Shown: positions 39,209-63,202 of the stretch, piece after piece
Numbering within the stretch: the first letter of the stretch is position 1
How the letters are laid out: each line of letters starts with the position of its first letter
Assembly (NCBI RefSeq): GCF_030246865.1
Contig: NZ_CP126738.1
Coordinates: forward strand, 1-64,000
Length of the DNA stretch: 64,000 nucleotides
Origin: Microbacterium sp. zg-B96
GTDB taxonomy: Bacteria > Actinomycetota > Actinomycetes > Actinomycetales > Microbacteriaceae
Direction: 5' to 3'
Made by a program: the position numbers and the translations under genes
The notes under the pieces: generated by a model
What the model was told of the DNA's origin: nothing
The model's database searches: none
The model's input: the letters and a program-made list of their open reading frames with translations, nothing else

Positions 39209-39262
39209 CCGAGTGAGTATTCGTGCTGCCGAGTGAGTATTCGCGGCGTCGAGTGAGTATTC
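39209..39262 (+). repeat. 20-bp-period repeat array A (3 units)
   Basis: CCGAGTGAGTATTC occurs at 39209-39222 and 39229-39242, and as TCGAGTGAGTATTC at 39249-39262. The period is exactly 20 bp with 6-nt variable spacers. The array fills the gap between the convergent mrpG and esterase genes. The same unit occurs in arrays at 42217-42310 and 63021-63202. Confidence 0.9.
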
Positions 39263-39265
39263 GCG

Positions 39266-40369
39266 TCAGTCGTCGTGGAGCCGCGCCAGGGCGCCGATGA
39301 CGTCCCGATGCCAGCGGCGGGCGGATGCCAGTGCGCCGGTGAACAACGGAATGTCATGCGTGACACCGAGATAACGCACCGCGCTGGCTGCCACGCCGTC
39401 GGCACGCAACCTCGCGGCGTACGCGTCGCCGTCGCGGCGGAGCGGGTCGTACTCGGCGGTGAGGACCACCGCCTCTGGCAGCCCGACGTGGGTGGCTGCC
39501 CGCAACGGTGACGCGAGCGGGTTGCGCGCGTCGGACGGATGCCGCAGATACGTGTGGGCCACCGAACGCAGCTCGCGCAGCGCGATGATGCTCGGGATGC
39601 CCAGTGCCCGCGTCGCCCGCAGGTCGAGATTGCGTCCGGTGAGGTCGGTGACGGGCACCTCGAGCACCTGGAGCCGGATGGGCAGGCCGGCCCGGTCGCG
39701 ATTGAGTAGCGTCAGCCCCGCCGCGATCGCCCCGCCGGCCGAGGTTCCGGTCACGCCGAGGCGGCCGGGGTCGATCCCCAGTTCGGCCGCATTCTCATGC
39801 AGCCACACCAGAGACGCGTATGCCTGCTCGATCTGCGTCGGAAAGCGATGCTCCGGCGCGAGGGAGTAATCCACGGCGACCATCGCGACCCCGGCTTCGG
39901 CCGCACGGCGCCGGTTGGCGGCATCCGTCGTCGGATAGTCGATGCCGCCGATGCGGAACGCGCCACCGAAGAACGCGAGCCACGCGGGCACCGACCCCCC
40001 CGCCGCCCCATCGGGGTAGTAGATGCGCACGCGCACGGCGGGGTACCCCGGCACCGGCACCTCGTGCTCGGTCGTGCGCACGTCGGGCCCGGGCGTTCCG
40101 ACCGCCTCGAGTTCCTTGCGATCCCAGGCGACCGCGGCGCGACGATGCCGCGCCCGGGCGGCGCTGTTCCCGCCCGATCCGCCCGAAGCGCCCGAGCCGC
40201 CCGAGCCGCCCGAGCCGCCCCCGCCACCACTGGACGCCGCCCGCGGTGCGCCGCCCCACAGCGAGGCGCGCCAGGCCGCGACGCGCGCGCGCATCGCCTT
40301 CAGGCTCTGGCCGATCAGGTAGCGCCGGTGCATCCGCAACCGCTCGGAGAAAAACGGGTCCAAGGGCAT
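39266..40369 (-). CDS. alpha/beta hydrolase, hormone-sensitive-lipase-like esterase
   Basis: The 367-residue serine hydrolase has nucleophile motif GTSAGG, acid in TAEYDPLRRDGD and His in GVTHDI. The oxyanion-hole motif, normally HGGG, reads FFGGAF. Ahead of the catalytic domain lies a pure Gly/Ser segment (about residues 46-68), encoded by a 9-bp-like microrepeat. It separates a basic N-terminal helix of about 40 residues from the hydrolase. ATG 40369 is supported by GGAGG. The substrate is unknown; secretion is not indicated. Confidence 0.87.
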   Translation of the reverse strand: MPLDPFFSERLRMHRRYLIGQSLKAMRARVAAWRASLWGGAPRAASSGGGGGSGGSGGSGASGGSGGNSAARARHRRAAVAWDRKELEAVGTPGPDVRTTEHEVPVPGYPAVRVRIYYPDGAAGGSVPAWLAFFGGAFRIGGIDYPTTDAANRRRAAEAGVAMVAVDYSLAPEHRFPTQIEQAYASLVWLHENAAELGIDPGRLGVTGTSAGGAIAAGLTLLNRDRAGLPIRLQVLEVPVTDLTGRNLDLRATRALGIPSIIALRELRSVAHTYLRHPSDARNPLASPLRAATHVGLPEAVVLTAEYDPLRRDGDAYAARLRADGVAASAVRYLGVTHDIPLFTGALASARRWHRDVIGALARLHDD

Positions 40370-40523
40370 CGGGACCTCCTCGGGAGTCGGGGTTCGATTC
40401 TAATGACGGGTGGCATCCACAGGTCCTGAGAGGACGAACCGAGCGCGCAGGTCGAGCAGTGCCACGTCGAAGGCTGCAGTGCAACCCCGCGCACGATCCG
40501 GCCGTTGCGCGTTGAGTTGAACG

Positions 40524-42218
40524 ATGACCAGGATGCCGGGTGGGGGAGACGGCCGGGCGGGGACCGTTCGGGTGAGTGTCGTGGTGGCGGTGTACAACCC
40601 GGGCGCGGAGTTCAACGAGCTGATCGGGTCCCTGGACCGGCAGACGTTACGGGCCCGCCACTTCGAGGTGCTGCTGTGCGATGACGGATCGGACGAGCCG
40701 ACCCGCCAGCGCCTGGCGCGGGTCGCGCGCACCCGCCCGAACGTGCGGGTGCTGAGCCTCGAGCACACCGGCTGGCCCGGCACGCCCCGCAATCGCGGCA
40801 TCGAGGCCGCGCGCGGTGACTACGTCTACATCGTCGACCAGGACGACTGGCTGTTCGAGCGGGCGCTGGCGCGGCTCTGCGACTACGCGGACCGCAACGG
40901 CTCGGATGTCGTCATCGGCAAGGAGGTCGGGATCGGGCGCCGCATCCCCGGCCAGATCTTCCGCCGGGACATCCCGCACGCCGTGCTCGGCGAAGATCCG
41001 CTCCTGGAACTGCTCACCCCGCACAAGCTGTTCCGGACGGCGTTCCTCAGGGACAACGACATCAGGTTCCCGGACGGGCGTGTGCGACTGGAGGACCACC
41101 TCTTCGTGATGCGCGCGTACTTCGCCGCGAAGACGATCTCGATCCTGGCGAGCGAGCCCTGCTATGCGTGGGTGAAGAACCGCGGCAGCGCCAGTTCGTC
41201 CCGGATCGATCCGGTGACCTACTTCCCTCACCTCGAGACGGTGCTCGATCTCGTCGAGGCCAATACGCCACCCGGTGCGCTGCGGAACACGCTGCTGCGC
41301 CACTGGTATCGCGGCAAGATCCTGAAGCGCCTCGATGGCCGGCGCGTCGTGAAGTATCCCGACGACTACCGGGAGCGCTTCCTCGACGTGGTCATTCCGA
41401 TCGCCCGGGAGCGGTTCGGACCGGGCGTCGAGGCGGGTCTTCCCTTCCCGCTGCGGGTGCGCTCCGCGCTGCTGCGTGCAGGGCGGCGCGACGAACTGCT
41501 GCGGTTGGCTGAGTTCGAGGCGAAGCTCGGATGCCGCGCCGAGGTGACGGCCGCGCAGTGGACGCCGGGCGGCAAGCTGAAGCTCACGCTGCGCATCCGG
41601 TTCCTTCGCGACGGCCAGGACGCGCTCGTGTTCGATCCGCGGGAAGTGAGGGCGGATGCCGGTGCCGGTGCCGGTGACGGTGTGGATGCGGGGGCCCCCG
41701 CCGAAGAGGGGCCACGCGTGGTGTGGCGTCCCCCCGAATCTCTTGGCCTCGACGTGCTCCCCGAAGCCGACCGGGATGCGAGCCGCGACCTGTGGCAGGA
41801 CCGGGTCGACCTGTTCCTGCGGGAGGACGGGGGCAGCGAACGCCGCATCCGGGGGAGCCGGCAGCGGAACATGGCGCGCGCAACCGTCACCATCGATCCG
41901 CTCGAGAGTGCTGCCGTCGGCGATGCATCCGTCGTCGGACAACTGGTGGCCCGCGTGCGCCACGCCGGCTGGACGTTCGAGACCCCGCTGCGGGCGGACC
42001 CGGCGATCTTCGACGGCATGAAGCCGTCGCCCCTTCTCGCGGGGCGCAACTGCGAACTCGGCGTCCGCAGCGACGGCACCGTCGAGTTCCGCCGTGACGG
42101 GTCCGCGGGCCGGTTGCGGGACTTCGTCGCGCGCGCGGCGCGGCGGCCCCGCGCCATCGCGGGCAAGGTCGTCCCGGCGCGGATCCGGCGGGCCCTGTCG
42201 CGCGTGCGCGGCGGCTGA
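40524..42218 (+). CDS. family 2 glycosyltransferase
   Basis: The 564-residue protein has a GT-A fold N-terminal domain (about 15-250): VSVVVAVYNPG, LLCDDGSDEPT and the DXD-like VDQDDW at about 104-109, which bind the nucleotide sugar. The C-terminal 250 residues are a beta-rich, family-unassigned region ending in an Arg-rich tail, with no membrane helix. Similar proteins make teichoic-acid or surface polysaccharide, but the product is unknown. ATG 40524 is used; GTG 40572 is an alternative. The stop codon overlaps the first unit of repeat array B. Confidence 0.85.
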   Translation: MTRMPGGGDGRAGTVRVSVVVAVYNPGAEFNELIGSLDRQTLRARHFEVLLCDDGSDEPTRQRLARVARTRPNVRVLSLEHTGWPGTPRNRGIEAARGDYVYIVDQDDWLFERALARLCDYADRNGSDVVIGKEVGIGRRIPGQIFRRDIPHAVLGEDPLLELLTPHKLFRTAFLRDNDIRFPDGRVRLEDHLFVMRAYFAAKTISILASEPCYAWVKNRGSASSSRIDPVTYFPHLETVLDLVEANTPPGALRNTLLRHWYRGKILKRLDGRRVVKYPDDYRERFLDVVIPIARERFGPGVEAGLPFPLRVRSALLRAGRRDELLRLAEFEAKLGCRAEVTAAQWTPGGKLKLTLRIRFLRDGQDALVFDPREVRADAGAGAGDGVDAGAPAEEGPRVVWRPPESLGLDVLPEADRDASRDLWQDRVDLFLREDGGSERRIRGSRQRNMARATVTIDPLESAAVGDASVVGQLVARVRHAGWTFETPLRADPAIFDGMKPSPLLAGRNCELGVRSDGTVEFRRDGSAGRLRDFVARAARRPRAIAGKVVPARIRRALSRVRGG

Positions 42219-42310
42219 ATACTCACTCGGGACCGCGAATACTCACTCGGCACCGCGAATACTCACTCGGCGGTGTGAATACTCACTCGGCGGCGTGAAT
42301 ACTCACTCGG
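42217..42310 (-). repeat. 20-bp-period repeat array B (5 units)
   Basis: GAATACTCACTCGG recurs at 42217, 42237, 42257, 42277 and 42297, exactly every 20 bp, with spacers GACCGC, CACCGC, CGGTGT and CGGCGT. The unit is the reverse complement of array A. It spans the junction between convergent genes. Unit 1 overlaps the glycosyltransferase TGA stop, and unit 5 contains the stop of the FAD-dependent gene. Confidence 0.95.
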
Positions 42311-43751
42311 GGGCCAGGGAGGGGAGGGTGCGGATGCCGAAGGAGCGGCGCAGCGCGGAGCGCGCGGCGTACCACCCCGACAGGCCGTGCACCCCGGGAC
42401 CGGGCACGGTCGACGCCCCGCACAGGTACACCCCGGGCAGCGGAGTGTGCCACGGATCGGTCGCGACCACCGGGCGGCGCAGCAACTGGCGCAGGCTCGC
42501 GGCCCCCGCGCTGATGTCGCCGTCGATGTAGTTGGGGTTCTCCTCGGGCAGGTCCGCCGCGGTCACGCTGTGGCTGTCGAGGATGAGGTCCCGGAACCCC
42601 GGTGCGGCCCGCTCGATCGTGCGCACGATCGCCTCGCGCTGGTCGACCGTGGATCCGGCCGGCACGTGCGTGTAAGCCCACAGGGTGTGCGCGCCGCGGG
42701 GCGCGCGGGTGTCGTCGAGCACCGACGGCTGCGACACCAGCACATACGGCTCCGCGGCATGCCGGCCCCGGGCGACGTCGTTCTCGGCCCGCGCGATCTC
42801 GGCGCGGGTGCCGCCCAGGTGCACCGTGCCCGCCTTCGCCACCCGAGGATCGGACCACGGCACCGGGCCCGACAGCGCGAAGTCGACTTTGGCGGCGGCG
42901 TTGCCGTAGCGGAACGCCTCGAGCGCTCGCCGGTACCCGGCCGGCAGGTCGTCTCCGGCGAATCCGAGGAACGCGCGCGGGGTGACATCCAGCAGCGTCG
43001 CCCGCGCCGGCGGCAGTTCCCGCAGCGACGTCACCTCGTGATCGGTGACGACCTCGCCGCCGTGCGCGACGAGATCCGCGATGAGCGCGTCGACGATCGC
43101 CTGGCTGCCGCCGCGGGGGATCGGCCATCCGCCGGCGTGGGCATGCGCCTGCAGCGCCAGCCCGGCACCGGCGCCGACGACGCTCGGCTGCCGCACGATC
43201 GCATGCGCGGCGACCCCGGTGATCATGGCCGGGGCGGCGGCCCCGGAGAAGCGCACATTCCACAGCGGGCTGCCCTGCGCGAGCGCGCGCAGTCCGAATC
43301 GGACCGCGGTCAGCGGATGCCGCGGCACGCCCAACAGGTTCGATCCGGTGAACTGGGCGACCTCGAAGGCGTGGGTGGCGAGCGGGGCGAGCAGCCGCCG
43401 GTAGGCGCGGCCGTCGCGCCCCAGCTCCTGCGCGGTGCGGTCGAGGTCCCGGTAGGCGACCCCCGCGCCGCCGGGCAGCGGATGCGCGAAGGACACCTCG
43501 GGGGTGATCAGCTCGACCCGGTGCGCCAGGCCGAACGCCCGGAAGAAGGGGGAGGCCACCGCGAGCGGGTGCACCGCGGAGCACACGTCGTGCCGGAACC
43601 CCGGGAGGGTCAGCTCCTGTGTGCGCGAGCCGCCGCCGGGCTGCGCCGCGCGCTCGTAGACGCGCACGGCAAGGCCCGCGCGGGCGAGGGTGACCGCCGC
43701 GGCCAGGCCGTTGGGGCCTGAGCCGACGACGACGACGTCGGGGGTGGTCAT
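42303..43751 (-). CDS. FAD-dependent oxidoreductase, phytoene-desaturase-like
   Basis: This 482-residue amine-oxidase/CrtI-type flavoprotein has an N-terminal FAD-binding Rossmann motif (DVVVVGSGPNGLAAAVTLARAG, in part) and a C-terminal FAD segment (GVYLCGASTVPGPGVHGLSG). The family includes carotenoid desaturases, but no crtB or crtE lies nearby, so a carotenoid role is unsupported. It is cotranslated with the upstream SRPBCC gene (ATGA overlap). Its last Glu codon and TGA stop are provided by the repeat array (GAGTGA). Confidence 0.88.
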   Translation of the reverse strand: MTTPDVVVVGSGPNGLAAAVTLARAGLAVRVYERAAQPGGGSRTQELTLPGFRHDVCSAVHPLAVASPFFRAFGLAHRVELITPEVSFAHPLPGGAGVAYRDLDRTAQELGRDGRAYRRLLAPLATHAFEVAQFTGSNLLGVPRHPLTAVRFGLRALAQGSPLWNVRFSGAAAPAMITGVAAHAIVRQPSVVGAGAGLALQAHAHAGGWPIPRGGSQAIVDALIADLVAHGGEVVTDHEVTSLRELPPARATLLDVTPRAFLGFAGDDLPAGYRRALEAFRYGNAAAKVDFALSGPVPWSDPRVAKAGTVHLGGTRAEIARAENDVARGRHAAEPYVLVSQPSVLDDTRAPRGAHTLWAYTHVPAGSTVDQREAIVRTIERAAPGFRDLILDSHSVTAADLPEENPNYIDGDISAGAASLRQLLRRPVVATDPWHTPLPGVYLCGASTVPGPGVHGLSGWYAARSALRRSFGIRTLPSLAPE

Positions 43752-44392
43752 GTCCCGGGGGCACCGGGTTCGTTGCGCGCGGCATCCCCGTCGCCGGTGG
43801 ATACATCGCCTGCCACGTCACCACCCGTGCCCGCGGCCCGCACAGCGCGCTCGGCACCGTCCGCGCCGTCCACGTCGGCCTGCGCCTGCGCTCCGGCGCC
43901 CGCGGTGGACGCGTCCGGCACGTCCTGGCGCGCTGTCTGGCTGCCCGCCTCGCGCTCGCGTCGCCGCCCCTCGGCGAGAAAGCCGAGGCGGCGCAGCGAC
44001 TCACGGTTGCGGGCGCGCAGCAGCGGAGCGATCAGCTGCGACACCAGGCGGCCGGGGCCGGCGACCGGCTCCTCGCCCATAGTCACCAGCGTGTCCTCGC
44101 CCCGCTCGCGCACGTCGATCACGACCACGGCACGGCCGATCGGTCCGGCCTTCGCGCGCAGCCGCACGCGATGCGGCGGCGACCATTCCACGATCTCGGT
44201 GGAGTCGTCGATCAGCCACGGCCAGGCGCCCACCGAGTGCTGCAGCTTCGCGCCCTGCTGGGGCCACTGCGGCGACACCGCCCGCATGCGCGCCGCGCCC
44301 ACGACCCACACCGGGTAGATCCAGCCGTCGGCGAGCGTGGCGAACACGTCGCCGGCTGTACAGCGCATCACACGCGCATTGCCTGCTGCCAT
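43748..44392 (-). CDS. SRPBCC-domain protein (polyketide cyclase/dehydrase-like)
   Basis: This 214-residue protein has an SRPBCC ligand-binding fold in the first 145 residues (VFATLADGWIYPVWVVGAARMR, in part, and EWSPPHRVRLRAK). A low-complexity Ala/Asp/Gly-rich tail of about 60 residues follows. ATG 44392 follows GAGGGGAG. It is the first gene of a pair with the FAD oxidoreductase. The ligand is unknown. Confidence 0.82.
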   Translation of the reverse strand: MAAGNARVMRCTAGDVFATLADGWIYPVWVVGAARMRAVSPQWPQQGAKLQHSVGAWPWLIDDSTEIVEWSPPHRVRLRAKAGPIGRAVVVIDVRERGEDTLVTMGEEPVAGPGRLVSQLIAPLLRARNRESLRRLGFLAEGRRREREAGSQTARQDVPDASTAGAGAQAQADVDGADGAERAVRAAGTGGDVAGDVSTGDGDAARNEPGAPGT

Positions 44393-44495
44393 GGGTGCTC
44401 CCCTCGTCGGTGCTCCGATCGTAGGCGAGTAGACGCGACCGCCGCCCGGGGGTTGCATCCGGCGCGATGACCTGCTTCGGATGCCCCGGATGCGC

Positions 44496-47132
44496 TCAGG
44501 ATGCCGGCACGAGCCGCAGTTCGTCGGTCGCCGCCGCCCGCACCGCGTCGTCGCTGAACGGCCACGGCGTCATCTCGCCGCGCTGCCACGTCTCGGTCTG
44601 GTCGGTGTAGTTGGGATGGAACGTGTGACCGCTGGTGCCGGTGAGGTGGTTCCACCGCGACGCATCGAGGTCGGACAGATCCACCACCATGCGCATCGAC
44701 GGCACCGTGACGGTGGCGAAGCTCCCGCTGCCCAGCGACCAGCCGCTCGCGTCGACCACCGAGGCGCCGCCGGCCACGTCGTACGGCCCGCGGTTGAACA
44801 GCCACTCGATCGGGGCGATGCCCGACGAGCCGAACGTGTCGCTGGTGAGGGTGATGGCGTGAAGCGACCCCCACTTCCACTGCGTCGGGTCCTCGCCTTG
44901 CAGCTCGGTCAGGCGTGCGGCGGCATCCCGTGCGGAGCGCTCCAGCATCTCCTGCTGCCCGGTCACCTCGAGGCCCTCGTTCGTCCACCACGGGTCGGAC
45001 GGGTTCTTCAGCAGCTCATCGACCACCTGGAACATGCGCGAGTGGCTGCCGGCCGGGGCGGGCACCTCCCGCTCGCGCACGAACATGTTCGACACCAGTT
45101 CGTCCCACAGCACGTTGGCATAGGCGGCGGCGGCGGATTCGGCGGAGTTCTGCGCGTCCCAGTCCTGCAGCAGCGCGAGGGCGGCATCCGTTTCCCCGTC
45201 GCCGGTCTGCACGTCGGCGTAGACCGCAGCCAGACGCTTTCCCATCCAGAACTGCGCGTCCGCCTGGATGTCGCGCATGTCGGCTGTCGTCAGCGGAGCG
45301 GCTGCGGCCTTGCGCTGGATGAGCTCGGTGATGCGGGCTGCCCGCCAGCCGTAGTCCCAGTCGTTCGTCAGCAGATAGGGATAGGTCTCATCCACCACGG
45401 CGTTGTTCGCGGTGACGATGTAGCCCTCGTCGGGGTTGTAGACCACCGGCAGCTCCTCGAACGGGATCATGCCCTGCCAGTCGTAGGCGGAGTCCCACCC
45501 CGGCTGCGGGAGCGAGCCGTCGCCGGCGCCGCGGATGGGCAGGCGTCCCGGCGTCTGGTAGCCGATGTTGCCCTCACGATCGGCGTAGACGAGGTTCTGC
45601 GCCGGCACGTCGAACAGCGCCGCGGCAGCGCGGAAGTCAGCGAAATCGGTGGCGCGGTCCAGCGCGAAGATGGATGCCGCGGTGGTACCGGCCTCCAGCG
45701 CGGTCCACCGCAGGCTGACGGCGTATTCGCTTCCCGTCGGTTCCGCCTCCGGTGCCCCGATCCCGGTGTCGCGGCGGATCTGCGGGTCATCGGCGATCGC
45801 GGTGAAGGCGGGCGTCAAGCCCGACACGATCGGGCCGTGCACGGTCGAGCGGATCTCGAGGGTCACCGGGTCGCCGCCGGCGACCTGCACCGTCTCGGTG
45901 CGGGTCTGAAGCGGCACGAGCTCCCCATCGCGCCAGTACGCGTCGCCCTCGATGCGCTCGATGTACAGATCGGTGACGTCGGTGGTGAGGTTGGTGAACC
46001 CCCACGCCACGTCGCGGTTGTGGCCGATGATGACGCCGGGCACGCCGGAGAAGCCGAACCCCGCCACGTCGAAGGGGCAGGCCTGCGATACCGCCCGGCA
46101 CCGCAGGTGACTCTGGTGCCAGACGCTCGGCAACGACGCGCCCAGATGCGGGTCGTTGGCCAGCAGCGGCATCCCCGACGCGGTGAGGTCGCCGGAGACG
46201 ACCCAGGAATTCGAGCCGATGCCTTCACCGACGCCGCCGAGCATCGCCGCGGCCGCCTCGACGACGCCGTCGACCTCAACCCAGTCGATCGACGCCGTCG
46301 CCGCGGTTGCGGGAGTGGTCCCCGGCAGGTCGTCCTCGGCAGTGATCACCGGGACGATCACCGGGTTGCGGTCGAACGGGTAGCCGGGGAAGAGCTGATC
46401 GATCTGCGCGGTGGTGTAGTCCTGCGCCATCAGCGCGCGATCGGTCTCGGTCTCCACGTTGCTGCGCAGGTCCCAGGCCATCGCCTTCAGCCACGCGATG
46501 GAATCCACCGCCGTCCACTCCTCGATGGCGTAGTCGGGGTTCTGCAGGCCGAGCACGGCGTACTCGAAGGATGCCGCCGACCCCTGGTGATCTGCCAGGT
46601 AGGCGTTCACCCCGTCGGCGTACGCGTCGTAGTACCCGCGCGTCTCGTCGTCGAGTGCGGCCACCTCCTGCTCGGCGATCTCGTGCCAGCCGAGGGTGCG
46701 CAGGAACAGGTCCGTGGGCAGCTGGCTCTCGCCGAACAGCTCCGACAGGCGCCCGGCGGTCATGTGCCGGCGGAAGTCCATCTCCCAGAATCGGTCCTGG
46801 GCGTGCACGTAGCCCTGTGCGAAGAACAGATCGTCGGAGGTGTCGGCGACGATGGTCGGCACGCCGAGCGCATCGCGCAGCACCTCCACCTCGCCGGTGA
46901 GCCCGGCGACCTCGACGGTGCCGTCCAGCTGCGGGAACGACCGCTGGATCGTCCAGACCACGGCGCTGACCGCGATGAGCGCGATCACCGTGATCCCCAC
47001 GATCACGCCGTACACCGACAGCCCGATCACCCGGCCGACGGAGCGTTTGCGCTTGCGCGGGGGTGCGCCGATCGTCGCCGGGTCCCCGCTCCGCGGGTCG
47101 TCAGCGGTCATGGCGCGTTCACGTGTCGTCAT
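44496..47132 (-). CDS. penicillin acylase family protein (Ntn hydrolase)
   Basis: The 878-residue protein has a basic cytoplasmic N-terminus, one membrane anchor (about 37-59), an alpha-chain-like region (FFAQGYVHAQDRFWEMDFRR), and a beta chain. The beta chain would begin at the nucleophile Ser in GSNSWVVSG, after autocatalytic cleavage. The canonical NDPHL motif follows. Relatives hydrolyse penicillins, cephalosporins or N-acyl-homoserine lactones; which applies here is unknown. Starts ATG 47132 and an internal ATG eight codons later are both possible. Confidence 0.9.
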   Translation of the reverse strand: MTTRERAMTADDPRSGDPATIGAPPRKRKRSVGRVIGLSVYGVIVGITVIALIAVSAVVWTIQRSFPQLDGTVEVAGLTGEVEVLRDALGVPTIVADTSDDLFFAQGYVHAQDRFWEMDFRRHMTAGRLSELFGESQLPTDLFLRTLGWHEIAEQEVAALDDETRGYYDAYADGVNAYLADHQGSAASFEYAVLGLQNPDYAIEEWTAVDSIAWLKAMAWDLRSNVETETDRALMAQDYTTAQIDQLFPGYPFDRNPVIVPVITAEDDLPGTTPATAATASIDWVEVDGVVEAAAAMLGGVGEGIGSNSWVVSGDLTASGMPLLANDPHLGASLPSVWHQSHLRCRAVSQACPFDVAGFGFSGVPGVIIGHNRDVAWGFTNLTTDVTDLYIERIEGDAYWRDGELVPLQTRTETVQVAGGDPVTLEIRSTVHGPIVSGLTPAFTAIADDPQIRRDTGIGAPEAEPTGSEYAVSLRWTALEAGTTAASIFALDRATDFADFRAAAALFDVPAQNLVYADREGNIGYQTPGRLPIRGAGDGSLPQPGWDSAYDWQGMIPFEELPVVYNPDEGYIVTANNAVVDETYPYLLTNDWDYGWRAARITELIQRKAAAAPLTTADMRDIQADAQFWMGKRLAAVYADVQTGDGETDAALALLQDWDAQNSAESAAAAYANVLWDELVSNMFVREREVPAPAGSHSRMFQVVDELLKNPSDPWWTNEGLEVTGQQEMLERSARDAAARLTELQGEDPTQWKWGSLHAITLTSDTFGSSGIAPIEWLFNRGPYDVAGGASVVDASGWSLGSGSFATVTVPSMRMVVDLSDLDASRWNHLTGTSGHTFHPNYTDQTETWQRGEMTPWPFSDDAVRAAATDELRLVPAS

Positions 47133-47194
47133 CGAGCATCCCCAGTCGTGCCGCGTCTCCCCTGTGAAACGCGGTGCCTGGGAATGCTATCGGG

Positions 47195-49373
<2,179 letters not shown>

Positions 49374-49397
49374 AGGTCCAGAGTACGAGGGTGCGGG

Positions 49398-50231: not shown

Positions 50232-50251
50232 GGGAGTGTCCTCTCAGTCGG

Positions 50252-51999: not shown

Positions 52000-52137
52000 G
52001 CAGGGGGGCCGGTTCGATCCAACTCCCTGGGCGCGCGCTTGGATAATCGCGTTACGCCGCGTGTCATCCGCGGTGACGCTGCCGGCGTCGCCGCGCCCCG
52101 CGGTGTCCGCCCACGCGGGCGCGCGGGGGCCGCCGGA

Positions 52138-52143
52138 TAGGAT
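52138..52143 (+). promoter_or_regulatory. predicted -10 element of purA
   Basis: TAGGAT fits TANNNT, leaving a leader of roughly 29 nt before purA ATG 52179, with GGGGGAG at 52166-52172 as SD. Confidence 0.5.
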
Positions 52144-52178
52144 GGGGTGTAACCGTCCGATAAACGGGGGAGTAGCCC

Positions 52179-54733: not shown

Positions 54734-54800
54734 GAGATGGTGCGAGCGTAGGACGAACCCGCCGGCATCCGTCCTACCGTCGTCACATCTCCTACGCTCG
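54725..54800. repeat. palindromic element, copy A
   Basis: Two 30-nt arms (54725-54754 and 54771-54800) flank a 16-nt spacer. CGAGCGTAGGAGATG and GTAGGAC pair perfectly, separated by about 8 unpaired bases. The 66-bp core 54730-54795 matches 55753-55818 at all but two positions that I can see. It sits between the lactonase-like and cyclase genes. Confidence 0.88.
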
Positions 54801-54843
54801 GCACGCGGTGGGGTGGTGCTGGTGTCGCTGATAGGTTCGGCCC

Positions 54844-55890: not shown

Positions 55891-56962
55891 TGATCAGCAG
55901 GATCGACGCGGTGACCGGGATCGCGATGAGTGCGCCGAGCAGGCCCAGCAGGGTGCCGCCGACCAGAGCGCCGATGACCACAAGAGCCCCGGGTACCGAG
56001 ATCGCCTTGTTCATGACGCGCGGCGTGAGTATGTATGCCTCGATCTGCATGTAGATCAGATAACCGATGCCGAAGATCAGTGCCGCCAGCGGACTGCTGA
56101 ACAGGGCGAGGGTCGTGGCGAGCACCCAGAACATCACCGTGCCCACGAGCGGGATGATCGTGATGCAGAACGCGACCACGGCCAGCAGTGCCGGGAACGG
56201 CAGTCCCAGCACGACGTGCAGGATGAATGCGAACACCGAATTGAAGAACGCGAGGATCACCATTCCCATGAGGTAGCTGCCGATCGAGTCGGTGATCTGG
56301 TTGGTGAGGGAGGCGACCTTCGGGCGGCTGTGCGCGGGGGTCAGGCGCACGAACGATGCCTTGATCGTGGACAGCGACGCCAGGAAGTACAGGGTCAGCA
56401 CGAGCACGATGATGAGGCCCGAGATGGTCGTCGCGATGGAGAGACCGACCTTCAGCAGCCCGCCGCCGATCGAGGCGAGGTTGCTCGGGTTCGTGATGAA
56501 GTTCTGCGCGTCGGTGAGAAGCGTGCCGATCTGATCGCTGAAGGTGGTCGAGAGCCAGGAGTAGAAATCGGTCTTCTGGAAGTCGGATACCAGTGATGGC
56601 ACGTCATCGATGAACTGCTTGACCTGGTTCACCACCGCCGGGATGACCAGCCACAGCATGCCGACGACCACGAGCGCGAACCCGAGGAAGACGATCACCA
56701 TCCCCCAGGCGCGAGGAACGTTGTGGTTCTCGAGCCAGCGGACGACGGGGTCTAGGCCCAGCGCGGCGAACAGGGCGAATGCGATGTAGATGAGGATGGT
56801 CGACAGGCTCGAGATCGCCAGCCCCAGCACGAAGGCGGCGAGGCCACCGAGGGTGAGCATGAACCCGAGGGTGAACGGGCTGGACAGGCTCGTCGCGCGA
56901 CGCGGAATCGGCGCACCCGAAGGCGCGGTATCGGCGAGCGGGCGGTCGGAGGTGTCGCTCAT
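55850..56962 (-). CDS. AI-2E family transporter (UPF0118)
   Basis: This 370-residue membrane protein of the TqsA/YdiK family has about eight helices: an N-terminal pair, the hallmark helices after GLDPVVRWLENHNVP, and a C-terminal bundle with GPGAL-like VPGALVVIGALVGGTLLG. Family members have been linked to autoinducer-2 export or Na+/H+ exchange; the cargo here is unknown. ATG 56962. It overlaps the cyclase 3' end by 41 bp. Confidence 0.88.
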   Translation of the reverse strand: MSDTSDRPLADTAPSGAPIPRRATSLSSPFTLGFMLTLGGLAAFVLGLAISSLSTILIYIAFALFAALGLDPVVRWLENHNVPRAWGMVIVFLGFALVVVGMLWLVIPAVVNQVKQFIDDVPSLVSDFQKTDFYSWLSTTFSDQIGTLLTDAQNFITNPSNLASIGGGLLKVGLSIATTISGLIIVLVLTLYFLASLSTIKASFVRLTPAHSRPKVASLTNQITDSIGSYLMGMVILAFFNSVFAFILHVVLGLPFPALLAVVAFCITIIPLVGTVMFWVLATTLALFSSPLAALIFGIGYLIYMQIEAYILTPRVMNKAISVPGALVVIGALVGGTLLGLLGALIAIPVTASILLIIKQVLIPRQDAKL

Positions 56963-57070
56963 GGGGACACTCTAGGGGCGGGCATCCGCCGACGGCAGGG
57001 TGGTGCGTGCCCGCCCGCTACGGCCCACCCGCCGCACTCGCCGGTAGGGTCGAGTGACGAGGAGGATGCC

Positions 57071-57361
57071 ATGACCGACCCCGCCGTGACGCTGCGGAAT
57101 CTGCGCACCAGCATCGACAACATCGATGCCGCGCTCATCTTCATGCTCGCCGAACGCTTCCGATGCACCAAGCAGGTCGGCATCCTCAAGGCCGAGCACG
57201 GCATGCCGGCATCGGACCCTTCGCGCGAAGAGCAGCAGATCGCGCGCCTGCGCGGGCTGTCTGAAGAGGCCGATCTCGATCCCGAGTTCGCCGAGAAGTG
57301 GTTCAACTTCGTCGTCGCCGAGGTCATCCGCCACCACACCGCCGCGGCCGACGGGCGCTGA
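57071..57361 (+). CDS. chorismate mutase, AroQ class
   Basis: This 96-residue all-helical enzyme converts chorismate to prephenate for Phe/Tyr synthesis. The family residues are Arg in NLRTSIDNIDAALIFMLAERF, Lys in CTKQVGILKA, and the C-terminal Glu/Gln region of FNFVVAEVIRHH. The start at ATG 57071 has an AGGAGG-like SD (GAGGAGG). It is monofunctional: no prephenate dehydratase or dehydrogenase domain is attached. Confidence 0.92.
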   Translation: MTDPAVTLRNLRTSIDNIDAALIFMLAERFRCTKQVGILKAEHGMPASDPSREEQQIARLRGLSEEADLDPEFAEKWFNFVVAEVIRHHTAAADGR

Positions 57362-57369
57362 CACGGCAA

Positions 57370-57394
57370 ACGCCCCGAGCCGAAGCCCGGGGCG
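57370..57394. terminator. hairpin between convergent chorismate mutase and ABC permease genes
   Basis: ACGCCCCG and CGGGGCGT form an 8-bp stem around a short loop in the 54-bp gap between the two converging 3' ends. No long T-run follows, but it could work in both directions. Confidence 0.65.
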
Positions 57395-57415
57395 TCCGCG
57401 TCGATGAAGGAGCGG

Positions 57416-58111
57416 TCAGGGGATGGCGCGGCGCAGCGTCGCCCACGAGCTGACCGCGAGCACGGTGATGAGCAGCACTCCCCAGGCAGCCAGGCCCAGC
57501 GCGCCCTGCGTCAGGATCCACTCCATGACCGGGCCCCATGCGCCGCGGAGCGTGATCAGCCACGTGATTCCGGCCAGGGCCAGGCCTACTGCGGACAGGA
57601 TGATCGCCACCCACGTGCTGCCGAACCGCTTGTAGATCGTGGCGGCCCAGAACCCGATGACGAAGAACAGCATGGCGATGACGAAGAACACGAAGCCCGC
57701 CGCCAGCGGCCCTGCCTCCCAGATCCAGTTCAGGTGGAAGAAGTAGCCGTTCAGGCCCCAGCCGTTCGTGGCCAGTTCGACCAGCCCGCCGAGCACGAAC
57801 ACCACTGCCAGGATCGCGGAGGTCATCGCGGCGGTGAGCACCGTGCCGAGGTAGAACTCCCGGCGGGTCACGCTCATGGCCTGCGAGAAGGGGAAGCTCA
57901 GCGTCAGAGCCTGGACGCCGACGAAGAGGAAGGTCCACAGTGGCGCCTGTGCACCGCCGCCGAACTTCGGTTCATCGATCCCCGCGCTGGCGAGCATCCC
58001 GTAGATCACCAAGGTGACCGCCAAAGCACCCGCCAGCACGATGAGGGGCACCCAGATGTAGGTCTGCTTGTTCACCAACTGCATGCGGACGACGTTCAGT
58101 GTGCGGCTCAT
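57416..58111 (-). CDS. ABC transporter permease
   Basis: This 231-residue protein has six predicted membrane helices and no recognisable substrate-binding partner, typical of ABC-2-like exporters of the YtrB group. It is the last gene of the GntR-ATPase-permease operon; its ATG 58111 overlaps the ATPase stop. The substrate is unknown. Confidence 0.85.
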   Translation of the reverse strand: MSRTLNVVRMQLVNKQTYIWVPLIVLAGALAVTLVIYGMLASAGIDEPKFGGGAQAPLWTFLFVGVQALTLSFPFSQAMSVTRREFYLGTVLTAAMTSAILAVVFVLGGLVELATNGWGLNGYFFHLNWIWEAGPLAAGFVFFVIAMLFFVIGFWAATIYKRFGSTWVAIILSAVGLALAGITWLITLRGAWGPVMEWILTQGALGLAAWGVLLITVLAVSSWATLRRAIP

Positions 58112-59034
58112 CGGAGCGCTCCTTCCTCGGCGGATGCCGCGGAGTGGGTGGATGCCGCGTTCTCGGCGGCGTGCTGGGTGGTGCGCACGATCAACTGCTG
58201 GAGTGAGACCGGGGTCACGTCCAGGCCGCTGCGGGCCAGCTTTTCGCGGTCGGCGGCGGTCAGTGCCCCGAGCACGGTGACGCTGGAGACGTGGCCGAGG
58301 GTCTCTCGGTGGGTCACCTCGCGTCCGGCGACGAAGGCGTTCACCGCGGCGGTGTCGCCGACGATGTTCGCGGCGCGGTCGCGCACGGCATCCGTCGACT
58401 CGTCCATGATGATGCGGCCCCGATCGATGACCAGCACCCGCTCGATGAGGTTGGCCACCTCGTCGATCAGGTGGCTGGAGAGGATGACCGTGCGCGGGTT
58501 CTCGCTGTAGTCGGCCAGCAGCCGGTCGTAGAAGATCTGCCGAGCGACGGCATCCAGCCCCAGATACGGCTCGTCGAAGAACGTGATCTCCGCCCGTGCG
58601 GCGAGACCGATGATGACGCCGACAGCCGACAGTTGCCCGCGCGAGAGCTTCTTGATGCGCGTCTTCAGCGGCAGCTGGAAGTCATCGATCAGCTGTTCGG
58701 CGAACTCCTGGTTCCAGTTGGGGAAGAACAGCCCAGCCGTGCGGAACGCGTGGATGGGTGTGGCGTCGTCGGGGTACTTCTGGCTCTCGCGCACGAAGCA
58801 CATCCGCTGCAGGATGCGGGCGTTCTCGTACGGGTGCTCCCCGAAGACGCGCACGTCGCCGCTGGTGGCGAAGTTCTGCGCCGTGAGGATCGACATGACC
58901 GTCGTCTTGCCGGCGCCGTTGCGGCCGAGGAGGCCGTAGATGGTGTCTTTTTCGATCGCGAAGCTCACGTCGTCTACGGCGACCGTCTCGCGATAGCGCT
59001 TGGTGAGTCCTGTGACCTCGATGACGGGAGTCAT
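58108..59034 (-). CDS. ABC transporter ATP-binding protein
   Basis: This 308-residue ATPase has Walker A GRNGAGKTT, a signature LSRGQLSAVG that deviates from LSGGQ, and Walker B ITFFDEPYLGLD. The C-terminal extension of about 90 residues is common in exporters of antimicrobial peptides or drugs. ATG 59034 overlaps the GntR stop (ATGA). Cargo unknown. Confidence 0.9.
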   Translation of the reverse strand: MTPVIEVTGLTKRYRETVAVDDVSFAIEKDTIYGLLGRNGAGKTTVMSILTAQNFATSGDVRVFGEHPYENARILQRMCFVRESQKYPDDATPIHAFRTAGLFFPNWNQEFAEQLIDDFQLPLKTRIKKLSRGQLSAVGVIIGLAARAEITFFDEPYLGLDAVARQIFYDRLLADYSENPRTVILSSHLIDEVANLIERVLVIDRGRIIMDESTDAVRDRAANIVGDTAAVNAFVAGREVTHRETLGHVSSVTVLGALTAADREKLARSGLDVTPVSLQQLIVRTTQHAAENAASTHSAASAEEGALR

Positions 59035-59408
59035 CGTGCCGTCCCTTCTGCGGTGGTGTAGCGCTGTTGGATGAGTGCCCCGAGCTCATCGGGGCCGAGC
59101 CCGAGGGCGCGTGCTTCGGCGAGCAGCGGCTCGACGTAGCGGTCGGCGAACGCTGCCCGGCGCTCGCCGCGCAACTGCTCGCGGGCGCCGGGGGCGACGA
59201 ACATGCCGATACCGCGCCGCTTGTACAGCACGCCCTTGTCGACGAGCATGTTCACTCCTTTCGCCGCCGTGGCGGGGTTGATCCGGTGGAAGGCGGCGAG
59301 GTCGTTGGTCGAGGGTACCTGTGCCTCTTCGGCTAGAGACCCGTCGACGATGGCGTCCTCGATGCCCTCGGCGATCTGCAGGAAAAGAGCCCGGCCCTCT
59401 TCGATCAC
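59031..59408 (-). CDS. GntR-family (YtrA-type) transcriptional regulator
   Basis: This 125-residue regulator has an N-terminal winged helix-turn-helix (QVPSTNDLAAFHRINPATAAKGV, in part) and a short YtrA-type C-terminal dimer helix. YtrA regulators repress the ABC exporter encoded with them and respond to cell-envelope stress or antibiotics. GTG 59408 begins it, and the upstream interrupted palindrome is a candidate operator. Confidence 0.9.
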   Translation of the reverse strand: MIEEGRALFLQIAEGIEDAIVDGSLAEEAQVPSTNDLAAFHRINPATAAKGVNMLVDKGVLYKRRGIGMFVAPGAREQLRGERRAAFADRYVEPLLAEARALGLGPDELGALIQQRYTTAEGTAR

Positions 59409-59423
59409 GTCGCTCCGTTCACT

Positions 59424-59447
59424 GGTTCATTACTTGACTAACTAACC
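59424..59447. promoter_or_regulatory. candidate GntR operator
   Basis: The 24-bp interrupted palindrome has the form GGTT-N2-TTA-N-T-N2-A-N-TAA-N2-AACC and lies 16-39 bp upstream of the GntR start codon. It overlaps the expected promoter and is much richer in A and T than its surroundings. Confidence 0.6.
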
Positions 59448-59761
59448 GTGCAACGCCGCGCGGCGAATGTCAAGGGGTCGGGCCGTTCGAGGACTGCGGC
59501 GGTTTGCCACACTGGCCAGCGCTATATACCCTTGAAACGGGCCTTGAGCCCCGACGACCAGTCCGCGGTCGCTCGACGTGGCCGACCCGAGGGCCACCGA
59601 TCCGAGCAGCCGTATGGTCGACGGTCATGGCGGCGGACCCGATGTGCGTCGCTCGAGCGCTGAACCGCGTCGATTTCCGACGCGTGTGCGGCGGCGCCGA
59701 TGACCGTCCACCCGGGCGTTACCTATGTTGGCCTGAAGACGCGGCTGCCGAGGTGAAGCAC
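59448..59761. other. 314-nt gap upstream of proV
   Basis: I see no convincing gene here. TATGTT (about 59734-59739) may be the -10 of proV, and GAGGTG (about 59750-59755) its SD. The open frame running into proV from 59504 has low-quality, Arg/Pro-rich translation and looks non-coding. Confidence 0.5.
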
Positions 59762-61078
59762 GTGAATGACGTACCCGCTGTCCAAGCGAAGAATCTGTTC
59801 AAAGTTTTCGGACGCAACCCGAAGGATGCCGTCAAGCGGCTGCGCGCCGGTCAGAGCCGGGCGGACATCGCCGATGCCGGCACCGCGGCGGTGATCGACG
59901 CCAGTTTCACCGTGCAGCCAGGTGAGATCTTCGTCATCATGGGGTTGTCCGGCTCGGGCAAGTCGACGATCATCCGCATGCTCAACGGACTGCTGCAGCC
60001 CACCGCGGGCGAAGTGCTCGTGCAGGGCAAGAACGTCACGACTGCGTCGGCGACCGAACTGCGCGGCATCCGTCGTTCGTCTGTGTCGATGGTCTTCCAG
60101 CACTTCGCACTGCTGCCGCACCGCACCGTGCTGGACAACGCCGCGTATGCGCTGGAGATCCAAGGCGTCGGCAAGGAGGAGCGGCGCAAGCGCGCGCTGG
60201 AGATCCTCGACAAGGTCGGCCTCGCCGACCGGGCCGAGGCGATGCCGGACGAGCTGTCCGGAGGCATGCGCCAGCGTGTGGGTCTTGCCCGCGCGCTCAC
60301 CGCAGGCACCGACATCCTGCTGATGGACGAGGCATTCTCGGCGCTTGACCCGCTCATCCGCCGCGAGATGCAGGAGCAGCTGGTGGAGCTGCAGCGCGAG
60401 ATGGGGCGCACGATCGTCTTCATCACCCATGACCTCAACGAGGCGATGTTCCTCGGCGACCGCATCGCGGTCATGCGCGATGGGCGCATCGTGCAGAACG
60501 GCACGCCGGAGGAGATCCTCACCGATCCCGCCAACGACTACGTCGCCCAGTTCGTCCAAGACGTCGACCGGGCGCGGGTGCTCACCGCCGGCGCCGTCAT
60601 GGAACCAGCCCACGCCACCACGCCGGTAAGCGCCGGCCTGCGCGGAGCCCTGCGGTCGCTGCGCGAACTGCAGGCGGGGTCGGTGTTCGTCACCGAGAAC
60701 CGGCACCTGCTGGGTGTGGTCAGCGACCGCCAGGTGATCCGCGCGATCAAGGCGGGCCAGACCGATCTGCGTGCGATCGTGGACACCTCGGTGCCGACCG
60801 TGTCGCCCGAAGATTCCCTCACCGACGTCGTCGAGCGCGCGGTCGAGACCACCATGCCGGTGCCCGTCATCGACGCCAGTGGACGGCTGGTCGGTCTCAT
60901 CCCTCGGGTGACGCTGCTGGCGGCGCTGGGCAACGTCCCGCCCATGACGCAGTCGATGCCGATCATCGAGCCGGCCCCGGTGCCGCAATCCGACCTCACT
61001 GATTCGCTGGCACGGCTCGGTGCGGCGGAGGCCTCGGCTTCCGAACTCACCGCTTCGTCGAAGGGGGATGCCGCGTGA
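59762..61078 (+). CDS. proV: glycine betaine/L-proline-type ABC transporter ATP-binding protein
   Basis: This 438-residue ATPase powers compatible-solute uptake. Its N-terminal signature FKVFGRNPKDAV is typical of ProV/OpuAA. Walker A is GLSGSGKST, the signature LSGGMRQRVGLARAL and Walker B ILLMDEAFSALDP. Two C-terminal CBS domains (about 300-410) sense ionic strength in OpuA-type systems. GTG 59762 is chosen because GAGG lies 8 nt upstream; GTG 59753 is an alternative. The stop overlaps proW. Confidence 0.93.
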   Translation: MNDVPAVQAKNLFKVFGRNPKDAVKRLRAGQSRADIADAGTAAVIDASFTVQPGEIFVIMGLSGSGKSTIIRMLNGLLQPTAGEVLVQGKNVTTASATELRGIRRSSVSMVFQHFALLPHRTVLDNAAYALEIQGVGKEERRKRALEILDKVGLADRAEAMPDELSGGMRQRVGLARALTAGTDILLMDEAFSALDPLIRREMQEQLVELQREMGRTIVFITHDLNEAMFLGDRIAVMRDGRIVQNGTPEEILTDPANDYVAQFVQDVDRARVLTAGAVMEPAHATTPVSAGLRGALRSLRELQAGSVFVTENRHLLGVVSDRQVIRAIKAGQTDLRAIVDTSVPTVSPEDSLTDVVERAVETTMPVPVIDASGRLVGLIPRVTLLAALGNVPPMTQSMPIIEPAPVPQSDLTDSLARLGAAEASASELTASSKGDAA

Positions 61079-61986
61079 ACGACCTGATTCGCCTTCCGCT
61101 CGGCGAGATCGCCGAGACGTTCGTCCGCTGGCTCATCGACACGATGGGCTGGCTCTTCGACGGCATTCGCGCCGTCTTCCTCGCCGTCTACGACTCGCTC
61201 GAGTGGGCGCTGCAGGCGCCGCCGTTCTGGGTGATCATCCTCGTTTTCGCCGCGCTGGCGTGGTGGGCCAAGGGTGTGTGGCTCGCGCTCGGAACGCTCG
61301 TGGGCCTGCTCGCCATCGTGGGTGTGGACCAATGGGACAACGCCATGCAGTCCCTCGCGCTGGTGATCGTCGCCTCGGTGATCGCCCTGGCGATCGGCAT
61401 CCCACTGGGCATCTGGGCCGCCCGCAACGACACGGTGTCCAAGATCGTGCGCCCGCTGCTGGACTTCCTGCAGACCATGCCCGCCTTCGTATACCTGATC
61501 CCGGCCCTCATGCTGTTCCGGGTGGGCGTCGTCCCCGGCATCGTCGCGACGATCGTGTTCGCACTGGCGCCCGGCGTCCGGCTCACCGAGCTCGGCATCC
61601 GCGGGGTCGACCGCGAGGTCGTCGAGGCAGGGCACGCGTTCGGCGCGTCGCCCGGCCGCATCCTGCGTCAGATTCAGCTGCCGCTGGCCATGCCCAGCAT
61701 CATGGCCGGCGTCAACCAGGTCATCATGCTGAGCCTGTCGATGGTCGTCATCGCCGGCATGGTCGGCGCCCGCGGCCTCGGCGGCGACGTCGTGCAGAGC
61801 CTGCAGAAGATCGACATCGCCCTGGGCGTCGAAGCAGGGCTCTCCGTCGTGGTCATCGCGATGATCCTGGACCGGTTGACGTCGGCGCTGGCCACGCGCA
61901 GTGCCCGCAGCACGGCGCGCACTCGCGCTGCCACTGCCAAGCGCGGTGGCGTCAAGGCGAAGCCCGTCGCCGCGGCATCCGCCTGA
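61075..61986 (+). CDS. proW: glycine betaine/L-proline-type ABC transporter permease
   Basis: This 303-residue permease has about seven helices and the EAA loop EAGHAFGASPGRILRQIQLP. LDFLQTMPAFVYLIP is highly characteristic of ProW/OpuAB. The GTG 61075 start overlaps the proV stop (GTGA). The C-terminus is a basic Ala/Arg/Lys tail. Substrate specificity (betaine, proline or another osmolyte) is inferred. Confidence 0.93.
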   Translation: MNDLIRLPLGEIAETFVRWLIDTMGWLFDGIRAVFLAVYDSLEWALQAPPFWVIILVFAALAWWAKGVWLALGTLVGLLAIVGVDQWDNAMQSLALVIVASVIALAIGIPLGIWAARNDTVSKIVRPLLDFLQTMPAFVYLIPALMLFRVGVVPGIVATIVFALAPGVRLTELGIRGVDREVVEAGHAFGASPGRILRQIQLPLAMPSIMAGVNQVIMLSLSMVVIAGMVGARGLGGDVVQSLQKIDIALGVEAGLSVVVIAMILDRLTSALATRSARSTARTRAATAKRGGVKAKPVAAASA

Positions 61987-62034
61987 CGTCCCCACACCCC
62001 CCACACACTTGCGAGCTCATCACTCGCGAGGGGT

Positions 62035-62086
62035 GCGGAGACTCCGCGCCCGACCACAACGACCGCTCCGTGCTCAGCACGCGGAG
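62035..62086 (+). other. stem-loops in the proW-proX gap
   Basis: GCGGAG-A-CTCCGC (62035-62047) is a perfect short hairpin. A second, imperfect stem-loop (about 62064-62086) ends just before the proX SD GGAGAGGAAG. Such structures between transporter genes often protect the binding-protein mRNA and raise its expression; that role is inferred here. Confidence 0.45.
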
Positions 62087-62101
62087 GGAGAGGAAGTCAC
62101 G

Positions 62102-63028
62102 ATGACCAAGAGAAGCAGGATGCTGGGGGCGCTCGCCTTCACATCAGCCGCCGCCCTGGCCCTGACCGGTTGCGCCGGCGGTTCCGGCGACGGCGGCTCC
62201 ACCGGCTCCGACGGCGACGCCGCGGCCGACCGCCCCATCACGATCGCCGTGTTCAACGGCTGGGATGAGGGCATCGCCGCATCCGAACTGTGGAAGGCCG
62301 TGCTTGAGGAGCAGGGCTACGAGGTCGAGCTGGAGTACGCCGACCCCGCAGCCGTGTTCAGCGGCATCGCCAGCGGCGATTACGACCTGACGCTTGACAC
62401 CTGGCTGCCGCTGACGCATGGCGACTATGTCGAGGAGTACGGCGCCGACATGGTGGATCTGGGTGCCTGGAACGAGGACGCCAAGCTCACCCTCGCCGTG
62501 AACGAGGATGCCCCGGTCGACTCGATCGATGAGCTCGCCGAGAACGCGGACCTGTTCGACAGCACCATCATCGGCATCGAGTCCGGTTCGGGTCTGGCGA
62601 CCGTCGTCGATGAGGAGGTCATCCCCGGGTACGGCCTGGAGGAGTTCGACCACGTGACCTCGTCGACGCCGGCGATGCTCACCGAGCTGGACACCGCCAC
62701 CAGCGCGGGCGAGAACATCCTCGTGACGCTGTGGCGTCCGCACTGGGCGTACGACGCCTACCCGCTGAAGGACCTCGAGGACCCGAAGGGTCTGCTGGGC
62801 GAAGCCGAGGGTCTGCACACGTTCGCGTCGACCACGTTCGAGGAGGAGTTCCCCGAGGTCGCCGAGTGGCTGGGCGCCTTCACGATGGACAGCGAGACGC
62901 TGTACTCCCTCGAGAACGCGATGTTCAACGGGCAGGACACCGACGAGTACGAGGACATCGTCGCCGAGTGGATCGCCGAGAACCAGGAGTACGTCGACTC
63001 CCTGACGGCCACCCCCGCCGCCGAGTGA
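62102..63028 (+). CDS. proX: glycine betaine-type ABC transporter substrate-binding lipoprotein
   Basis: This 308-residue OpuAC-family protein has a lipoprotein signal (lipobox LTGC near residue 21) and a Gly/Ser/Asp-rich linker. Aromatic residues suited to a quaternary-amine cage appear in FNGWDEG, DTWLPLTHGDYV and LWRPHWAYD. ATG 62102 follows a strong SD. The final Glu and TGA stop (63026-63028) lie in the first unit of repeat array C. Confidence 0.93.
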   Translation: MTKRSRMLGALAFTSAAALALTGCAGGSGDGGSTGSDGDAAADRPITIAVFNGWDEGIAASELWKAVLEEQGYEVELEYADPAAVFSGIASGDYDLTLDTWLPLTHGDYVEEYGADMVDLGAWNEDAKLTLAVNEDAPVDSIDELAENADLFDSTIIGIESGSGLATVVDEEVIPGYGLEEFDHVTSSTPAMLTELDTATSAGENILVTLWRPHWAYDAYPLKDLEDPKGLLGEAEGLHTFASTTFEEEFPEVAEWLGAFTMDSETLYSLENAMFNGQDTDEYEDIVAEWIAENQEYVDSLTATPAAE

Positions 63029-63202
63029 GTATTCCCCGCGTCGAGTGAGCATTCACCCTGTCGAGTGAGCATTCACCCTGTCGAGTGAGTACTCCCGGCG
63101 CGGGGAAACCCTGTCTGGGCGGGCTCGTGAGTAGTCACTCGCGACCACGAGTACTCACTCGCGATCACGAATACTCACTCGGCAGCGCGAATACTCACTC
63201 GG
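63021..63202. repeat. 20-bp-period repeat array C (4 forward + 4 inverted units)
   Basis: Forward units begin at 63021, 63041, 63061 and 63081 (core CGAGTGAGYATTC, the fourth diverged). Inverted units lie at about 63129, 63149, 63169 and 63189 (core GAATACTCACTCGG in the last two, the first two diverged). Each half has an exact 20-bp period, so the halves could form one long stem around 63096-63128. It spans the convergent proX/hypothetical junction and holds both stop codons. Confidence 0.93.

Follow-up and report, generated by a model that had tools for sequence, protein, structure and literature searches.

A clade-limited 20-bp repeat array at gene ends in Microbacterium, with strand-specific RNA folding predicted from its sequence

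Repetitive extragenic palindromic (REP) elements form RNA hairpins behind genes, and the DNA uptake sequences (DUS) and uptake signal sequences (USS) of Neisseria and Haemophilus are clade-specific words that stand as inverted pairs behind genes, in a thousand or more copies. REP elements and bacterial interspersed mosaic elements (BIMEs) are short, dispersed extragenic repeats that are lineage-specific and occur in inverted pairs (PMC2817692). Here we describe a repeat family first noticed in the initial 64 kb of the genome of Microbacterium sp. zg-B96 (this stretch of 64,000 nucleotides is the window; the genome, a single contig of 3,409,839 bases, is referred to as G000), in which a short core recurs in tandem every 20 bp. 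The arrays resemble REP elements and BIMEs in being high-copy (208 exact units), extragenic (73 of 74 arrays), lineage-specific (5 of 366 genus genomes) and found in inverted pairs; they differ in that the unit is a direct tandem repeat with a fixed 20-bp period, without a GTAG/GTGG head, and is an imperfect palindrome as DNA. With intrinsic terminators they share a position in convergent gaps, a predicted RNA hairpin and, when paired, two-sidedness, but the three arrays of the window lack a U-tract and all arrays share one sequence genome-wide. As in minisatellites, the number of units varies between orthologous arrays, yet one core is found in 74 separate arrays, and core and spacing are kept while spacers diverge. 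The original prediction, made from the window alone, knew of no named element with this sequence, and in the accessible open-licence literature we likewise found no description of the repeat, by sequence or by words.

Our preferred, though tentative, reading is that the family is a strand-polar array of RNA hairpins that would form or protect transcript 3' ends and that has spread as a REP-like dispersed repeat. The unit consists of CGAGTGAGTATTC followed by 7 nt, with the consensus CGAGTGAGTATTCGYGSYSN. A 6-nt spacer had been proposed, which is correct if the following, often conserved G is counted with the core, and incorrect for the 13-mers themselves, which are separated by 7 nt. The core is an imperfect palindrome, CGAGT-N4-ATTCG. 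Throughout the 3.41 Mb of G000 there are 208 exact copies of CGAGTGAGTATTC (112 on the plus strand and 96 on the minus strand), with none in the reversed control. When degenerate in-phase units are allowed, these resolve into 74 arrays with 278 units, collected from 38 stretches around all 208 exact copies after one isolated one-mismatch unit at 74847 was dropped; the 74 arrays are a lower bound, because arrays elsewhere in the genome that contain no exact unit would be missed. Arrays hold 2 to 8 units, mostly 3 or 4, and in the four genomes with many arrays, taken together, the start-to-start distance is exactly 20 bp for 422 of 431 neighbouring units. Adjacent units mismatch at 30% of spacer positions and at 3.5% of core positions, the latter figure being biased low by the detection of units through core similarity.

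Within the window, a 12-mer search allowing up to 2 mismatches gave 17 matches, 16 of them in arrays, compared with a mean of 1.34 and a maximum of 4 in 100 shuffles. Array A (39210..39262, plus strand) comprises three exact units at the 20-bp period and takes up nearly all of the gap between two stop codons, and array B (42217..42309, minus strand) comprises five exact units. Element C is an inverted pair: a plus arm (63022..63094) of four units, one exact and three with one change, the innermost being an ACTC variant, is separated by a 34-nt centre (63095..63128) from a minus arm (63129..63201) of four inward-pointing units, two exact, one with one change and one with two. The three arrays of 3, 5 and 4+4 units with a period of exactly 20 bp are therefore as first described, to within a base or two, and so is their position between converging genes: gene calls from a self-trained coding model (59 genes, 93% of the window) place A, B and C in the convergent gaps 39208|39266, 42218|42303 and 63028|63195.

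The further proposal that the arrays are placed only at convergent junctions does not extend to the genome, since 28 of the 57 array-bearing gaps in G000 are tandem or divergent. Counted singly, the arrays fall into convergent (39), tandem (24) and divergent (10) gaps, with one more inside a called open reading frame, and 73 of the 74 are confined to gaps or overlap gene ends only. Convergent junctions are nevertheless favoured about three-fold, although not exclusively. Array-bearing gaps number 29 convergent, 19 tandem and 9 divergent, against an expectation of 9.6, 37.6 and 9.8 drawn from 291 gaps in contiguous stretches of G000 and its relatives G118 and G031 (chi-square p 3e-11), which excludes equal occurrence at tandem and divergent gaps; within such contiguous stretches an array is present in 10 of 49 convergent versus 5 of 242 other gaps (Fisher p 1e-5). 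For 54 of the 73 arrays outside genes, the gene on the outer side presents its 3' end, a count that is partly geometry because in a convergent gap either orientation is sense with respect to one of the two genes. Among these 54, the stop codon lies in the first unit for 17 and in the second for 6, and another 27 arrays begin 1-21 nt away. Single arms in tandem gaps are the informative case, and here the ratio of sense to antisense is 10:4 in G000, 6:1 in G118, 3:0 in a further relative, G025, and 1:3 in G031, a bias toward sense that is suggestive only.

Two features go beyond what had been noticed before: the capture of stop codons by units and the strand-specific fold that is predicted for the arrays. 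The unit carries its own stop, and the last seven nucleotides of the gene are CGAGTGA at 25 of the 67 gene ends that have an array no more than 40 bp away, in either orientation, versus 2 of 237 other ends in G000, and at 20 of 50 versus 3 of 328 in G118; in the array-free relative G173 the count is 8 of 858. The G173 orthologs that were compared end in other letters, whereas the genes of array-bearing genomes often end in GCC GAG TGA, composed of spacer and unit start. In the window, the adjoining gene has its stop codon within a unit in three cases (offset -7): at the outermost unit of both C arms and at the right-hand B unit. At array C, the stop codon of G118, G031 and G173 lies upstream of, or without, any unit, while the G000 gene runs into the unit. 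Judged by eye, the centre of element C in G118 and G031 forms a short GC hairpin with TTCG, and the equivalent gap of G173 contains a long GC hairpin.

In sense orientation, the RNAs of A, B and the two arms of C have predicted folds with z values of -3.5 to -6.7. Pairing had been thought possible for array C only, but the sense RNA of array A (-27.7 kcal/mol, z -4.33) and that of array B, from the minus strand (-42.4 kcal/mol, z -6.68; plus strand z -0.94), are each predicted to fold alone; the whole of element C (63015-63210) reaches -102.6 kcal/mol with z -7.0. Across the 74 arrays of G000 and 64 of G118, the sense fold is better than the antisense fold in 136 of 138 (mean z -3.70 versus -1.76), with the caveat that shuffling a repeat inflates z for both strands. 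The asymmetry is one of degree, as antisense arrays of at least three units still fold slightly better than shuffles. In a two-unit model, the RNA is predicted at -12.3 kcal/mol in sense and -2.1 kcal/mol in antisense, and the DNA at -1.0 kcal/mol. The preference for the sense strand can be read from the sequence: two copies of GAGUAUUC can pair along their length (G-C, A-U, G-U, U-A and so on), but two copies of the complement GAAUACUC cannot pair at every position.

These observations suggest the following mechanism. Neighbouring units 20 nt apart in the sense RNA would be able to pair, because GAGUAUUC is self-complementary through G-U pairs, giving a hairpin with a loop of about 8 nt, while the antisense RNA would fold much less. 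With at least two units after its stop codon, the upstream transcript would then carry a 3' hairpin that ends or protects it, and where a minus arm comes after a plus arm, both of the converging genes would be served. The TGA of the unit often becomes the stop codon of the gene. The reading presupposes transcription and folding of the RNA, and an effect of the folded RNA on transcripts, which it would end, stabilise or insulate. If it is correct, the element could multiply and grow longer behind genes while forming little hairpin as DNA, capturing stop codons as it does so, and transcript ends would have been rewired at dozens of junctions within one bacterial clade. A design rule suggests itself, in which G-U self-complementarity allows RNA to fold in one orientation with little hairpin in the DNA, and if the arrays do shape transcript ends they would provide a portable boundary element for high-GC actinobacteria. 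That the arrays represent a class of 3'-end element of their own, built as a direct repeat in DNA whose self-complementarity lies in G-U pairs, so that hairpins form chiefly in the RNA and chiefly from one strand, is a doubtful generalisation.

Several results weigh against the hairpin reading, and four of them (the arrays in divergent gaps, an array between genes that lie 5 bp apart in G173, the missing U-tracts and a neutral length-matched hairpin comparison) weigh in particular against a plain terminator. Nine of the 57 array gaps lie between diverging genes, neither of which would need a 3' end there, and the array at 2729297-2729369 separates two co-directional genes that are only 5 bp apart in G173. 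A simple consensus scan for U-tract terminators (a GC-rich hairpin followed by a U-tract) found none at A, B or C. An additional hairpin (-15 kcal/mol or lower) is present in 38% of 63 array-bearing versus 77% of 65 array-free convergent gaps, a difference that is due to the smaller space left in array gaps: when other convergent gaps are cut to matching lengths, their pieces hold such hairpins no more often (0.36±0.03, versus 0.38 in array gaps), so that replacement of terminators through loss of other hairpins is unsupported. The tandem single arms of G031 run the opposite way, and the 10:4 of G000 is weak alone. Lastly, G-to-A changes at core positions 3 and 5, which RNA pairing would survive, occur in just 1 and 0 of 601 units, and pairing alone is therefore insufficient to account for the constraint on the core.

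That constraint is better explained if a sequence-specific protein binds the 13-14-bp core behind genes cooperatively, at 20-bp steps on the same face of the DNA, as a roadblock, insulator or nucleoid anchor, an explanation we regard as rather unlikely overall. It would account for a spacing of exactly 20 bp in 422 of 431 cases despite 30% divergence of the spacers, and for core purines that hardly vary: the commonest core changes among the 601 units are T10>C (78), C12>G (37) and T8>C (17), with the purines nearly invariant. An imperfect palindrome with a central gap is a layout often used by dimeric repressors, and CGAGT-N4-ATTCG has this form. Within inverted pairs, T10>C, the change that completes the palindrome, is concentrated in the innermost units, where 30 of 76 carry it, versus 13 of 189 units elsewhere in the pairs. 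However, no candidate protein can be named (no search for one was made), and folding of the sense-strand RNA is not predicted by protein binding. The two readings may both hold: the strict spacing and the unchanging purines are easier to reconcile with a bound protein, and the difference between strands and the closeness to stop codons with an RNA hairpin.

It is also unlikely, although worth weighing, that the arrays are a selfish or neutral repeat of REP/BIME type, multiplied by some trans-acting enzyme and surviving where it does no harm, hence at 3' ends and in convergent gaps. Restriction to one small clade is as expected of such a repeat. An exact two-unit pattern was found among 84,980 GTDB species only in M. 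pullorum (G000 itself and very near genomes were possibly excluded from that set), and the exact 13-mer in 7 genomes of a sample of 198 from the genus, of which three have one match each; by one neighbouring gene, G118, G031 and G025 are the closest to G000 in this sample. A degenerate two-unit pattern identified 5 of 366 genus genomes, with 158 matches in G000, 211 in G118, 45 in G031, 30 in G025 and 3 in G364, which has one array, and none in reversed controls. The family is clade-limited within the genus. It had been allowed that the three arrays of the window might be the only ones and absent from relatives, which is not so: there are 74 in G000, and three relatives have arrays at orthologous junctions, although the two-unit pattern is absent from 361 of the 366 genomes. 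A 14-mer search with 2 mismatches gave 290, 360, 150 and 69 matches in G000, G118, G031 and G025, and 12-46 in each of twelve other chosen genomes, above the 2-12 of reversed controls in all twelve, which indicates a low scatter of single similar words elsewhere. A search of 980 kb of G173 for degenerate runs found none, and viral contigs gave no match, leaving a viral source unsupported.

Empty sites in outgroups also fit a spreading repeat. G173 is array-free at all six gaps with both flanks conserved. At three gaps at 1093-1096 kb no array was found in G177, G094 and G017, as far as the compared loci reach, and G025 is array-free in two of these and has at most one decayed unit in the third. 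The empty orthologous sites imply that arrays were added at existing junctions. Where both flanks are conserved and adjacent, G000 and G118 share the array in 22 of 22 cases, a figure biased by G118 stretches that were mostly picked by their arrays; G000 and G025 share 6 (2 are found in G000 only), and G118 and G031 share 13 (3 in G118 only). The number of units is equal in just 12 of 59 orthologous arms over three comparisons. Most arrays were thus added before G000, G118 and G031 parted, and their lengths have kept changing. The family offers a case of one bacterial lineage gaining a shared gene-end element at many junctions, with empty orthologous sites beside filled ones.

The arrangement of the arms is a further point in favour of a selfish repeat. 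Arms no more than 4 kb apart are ordered plus-then-minus in 23 cases and minus-then-plus in none in G000 (24 versus 1 in G118), so that close pairs point inward, and 14 of 40 distinct close inverted pairs share a centre of exactly 5 nt between their two innermost cores, with G118 contributing 11 of these pairs and G000 one. On the other hand, dead copies would not be expected to keep an exact core in 208 of 278 units alongside diverging spacers. There is no clear target-site duplication: among 57 pairs, flank identity at 4-9 nt is near the shuffled mean, the best case, at 8 nt, being reached by 36 of 500 shuffles. The RAYT Y1 transposase domain (PF01797) is present in 0 of 16 genomes, with 5 of 14 control genomes positive, and Pfam showed no transposase among the bracketed proteins scanned, a subset of the bracketed genes. 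At equal depth in the two arms of 40 inverted pairs from four genomes, spacers are less alike than shuffled ones (0.37 versus 0.44±0.025; 1 of 500 shuffles as low), implying that full-length perfect palindromes are avoided or not formed. Non-exact units make up 71 of 170 innermost and 26 of 170 outermost units, the degenerate ones sitting inside. Polar growth from the gene side would fit this, but anchored orthologous arrays split between inner better (1, 11 and 5) and outer better (5, 8 and 3) in three comparisons.

A signal for DNA uptake or recombination, as in Neisseria and Haemophilus, with inverted pairs doubling as terminators, would match the clade-specific word, the inverted pairs behind genes and the exact cores, but is very improbable: uptake words are single and far more numerous, and are not known to be set in tandem 20-bp arrays, whereas the present family consists of such arrays with about 200 exact units. 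Least tenable is the notion that the arms delimit a mobile cassette of the transposon or integron type: plus and minus arrays often enclose one or two genes, segments of 0.15-4 kb are bracketed (plus-minus 8 versus minus-plus 0 in G000; 6 versus 1 in G118), bracketed genes differ among relatives at 197 and 615 kb, and the surroundings of an epimerase gene align cleanly to array-free G173, but at this one tested locus the model is largely refuted, as the gene is in place in G025, G177, G094 and G017 without detectable arrays there, so that the arrays came later, and the remaining differences in bracketed genes look like gene loss or relics.

The epimerase gene (1094487-1095464 in G000) lies between plus and minus arrays and is missing at the same place from G173, G190, G135, G035 and G054, which reflects gene gain or loss independent of the arrays. 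Between the arms at 197092-197820 in G000 is an acetyltransferase gene that is absent in G118 (159061-159289), while G031 keeps, by eye, a stretch resembling its start (about 164060-165990). A TMEM175-like channel gene between the arms at 615606-617314 in G000 has a similar but uncalled counterpart in G118 (566183-567493); in G031 (492876-492948) both this gene and the minus arm are missing. G118 also carries, at 1127640-1128330, a segment of about 400-450 bp that contains a five-unit array and lies between direct repeats of about 35 bp; G031 (1026499-1026746) has a single copy of the repeat, a difference that could be either a deletion between the repeats or an insertion with duplication. The idea that arrays are hot spots of gene turnover was rejected: neighbourhoods broken relative to G173 are more frequent at array gaps overall (15 of 22 versus 30 of 95 in G000) but not within convergent gaps (8 of 13 versus 8 of 12), so that the pooled effect is confounded with gap class.

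The genes flanking the window arrays are varied. Upstream of A is a PhaG/MnhG-type Na+/H+ antiporter subunit (38852..39208, plus strand; PF03334), and converging on it is an alpha/beta hydrolase (39266..40369, minus strand; PF07859). Array B follows a family 2 glycosyltransferase with a TarS linker domain (40572..42218, plus strand) and faces an FAD/NAD-binding oxidoreductase (42303..43751, minus strand) whose stop codon TGA lies inside the outermost B unit. At C, an OpuAC substrate-binding protein (62102..63028, plus strand; PF04069) ends with a TGA inside the first unit, and the converging gene (63195..63950, minus strand), with no Pfam family at E 0.001, ends with a TGA inside the outermost minus unit. 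A search of the window with Rfam at the gathering score returned three tRNAs only and no match to the arrays. The four genes of 39266-44392 (hydrolase, glycosyltransferase, oxidoreductase and one cyclase-like) lie between neighbours that adjoin in G173, and are also present in G118 and G031.

Among the matches listed for G173 there was no second dispersed array family; at about 1344262-1344490, between genes, that genome contains one long minisatellite with a 15-bp unit, many copies of which stand together there. In G025, nearly all units of two arrays (C11:60950 and C17:93845) read GAGTGAGCATTC, while the same junctions in G000 read GAGTGAGTATTC. A core dialect throughout G025 was rejected, as GAGTGAGCATTC characterises just a few arrays in 362 kb of that genome, and these arrays represent local homogenisation of a variant.

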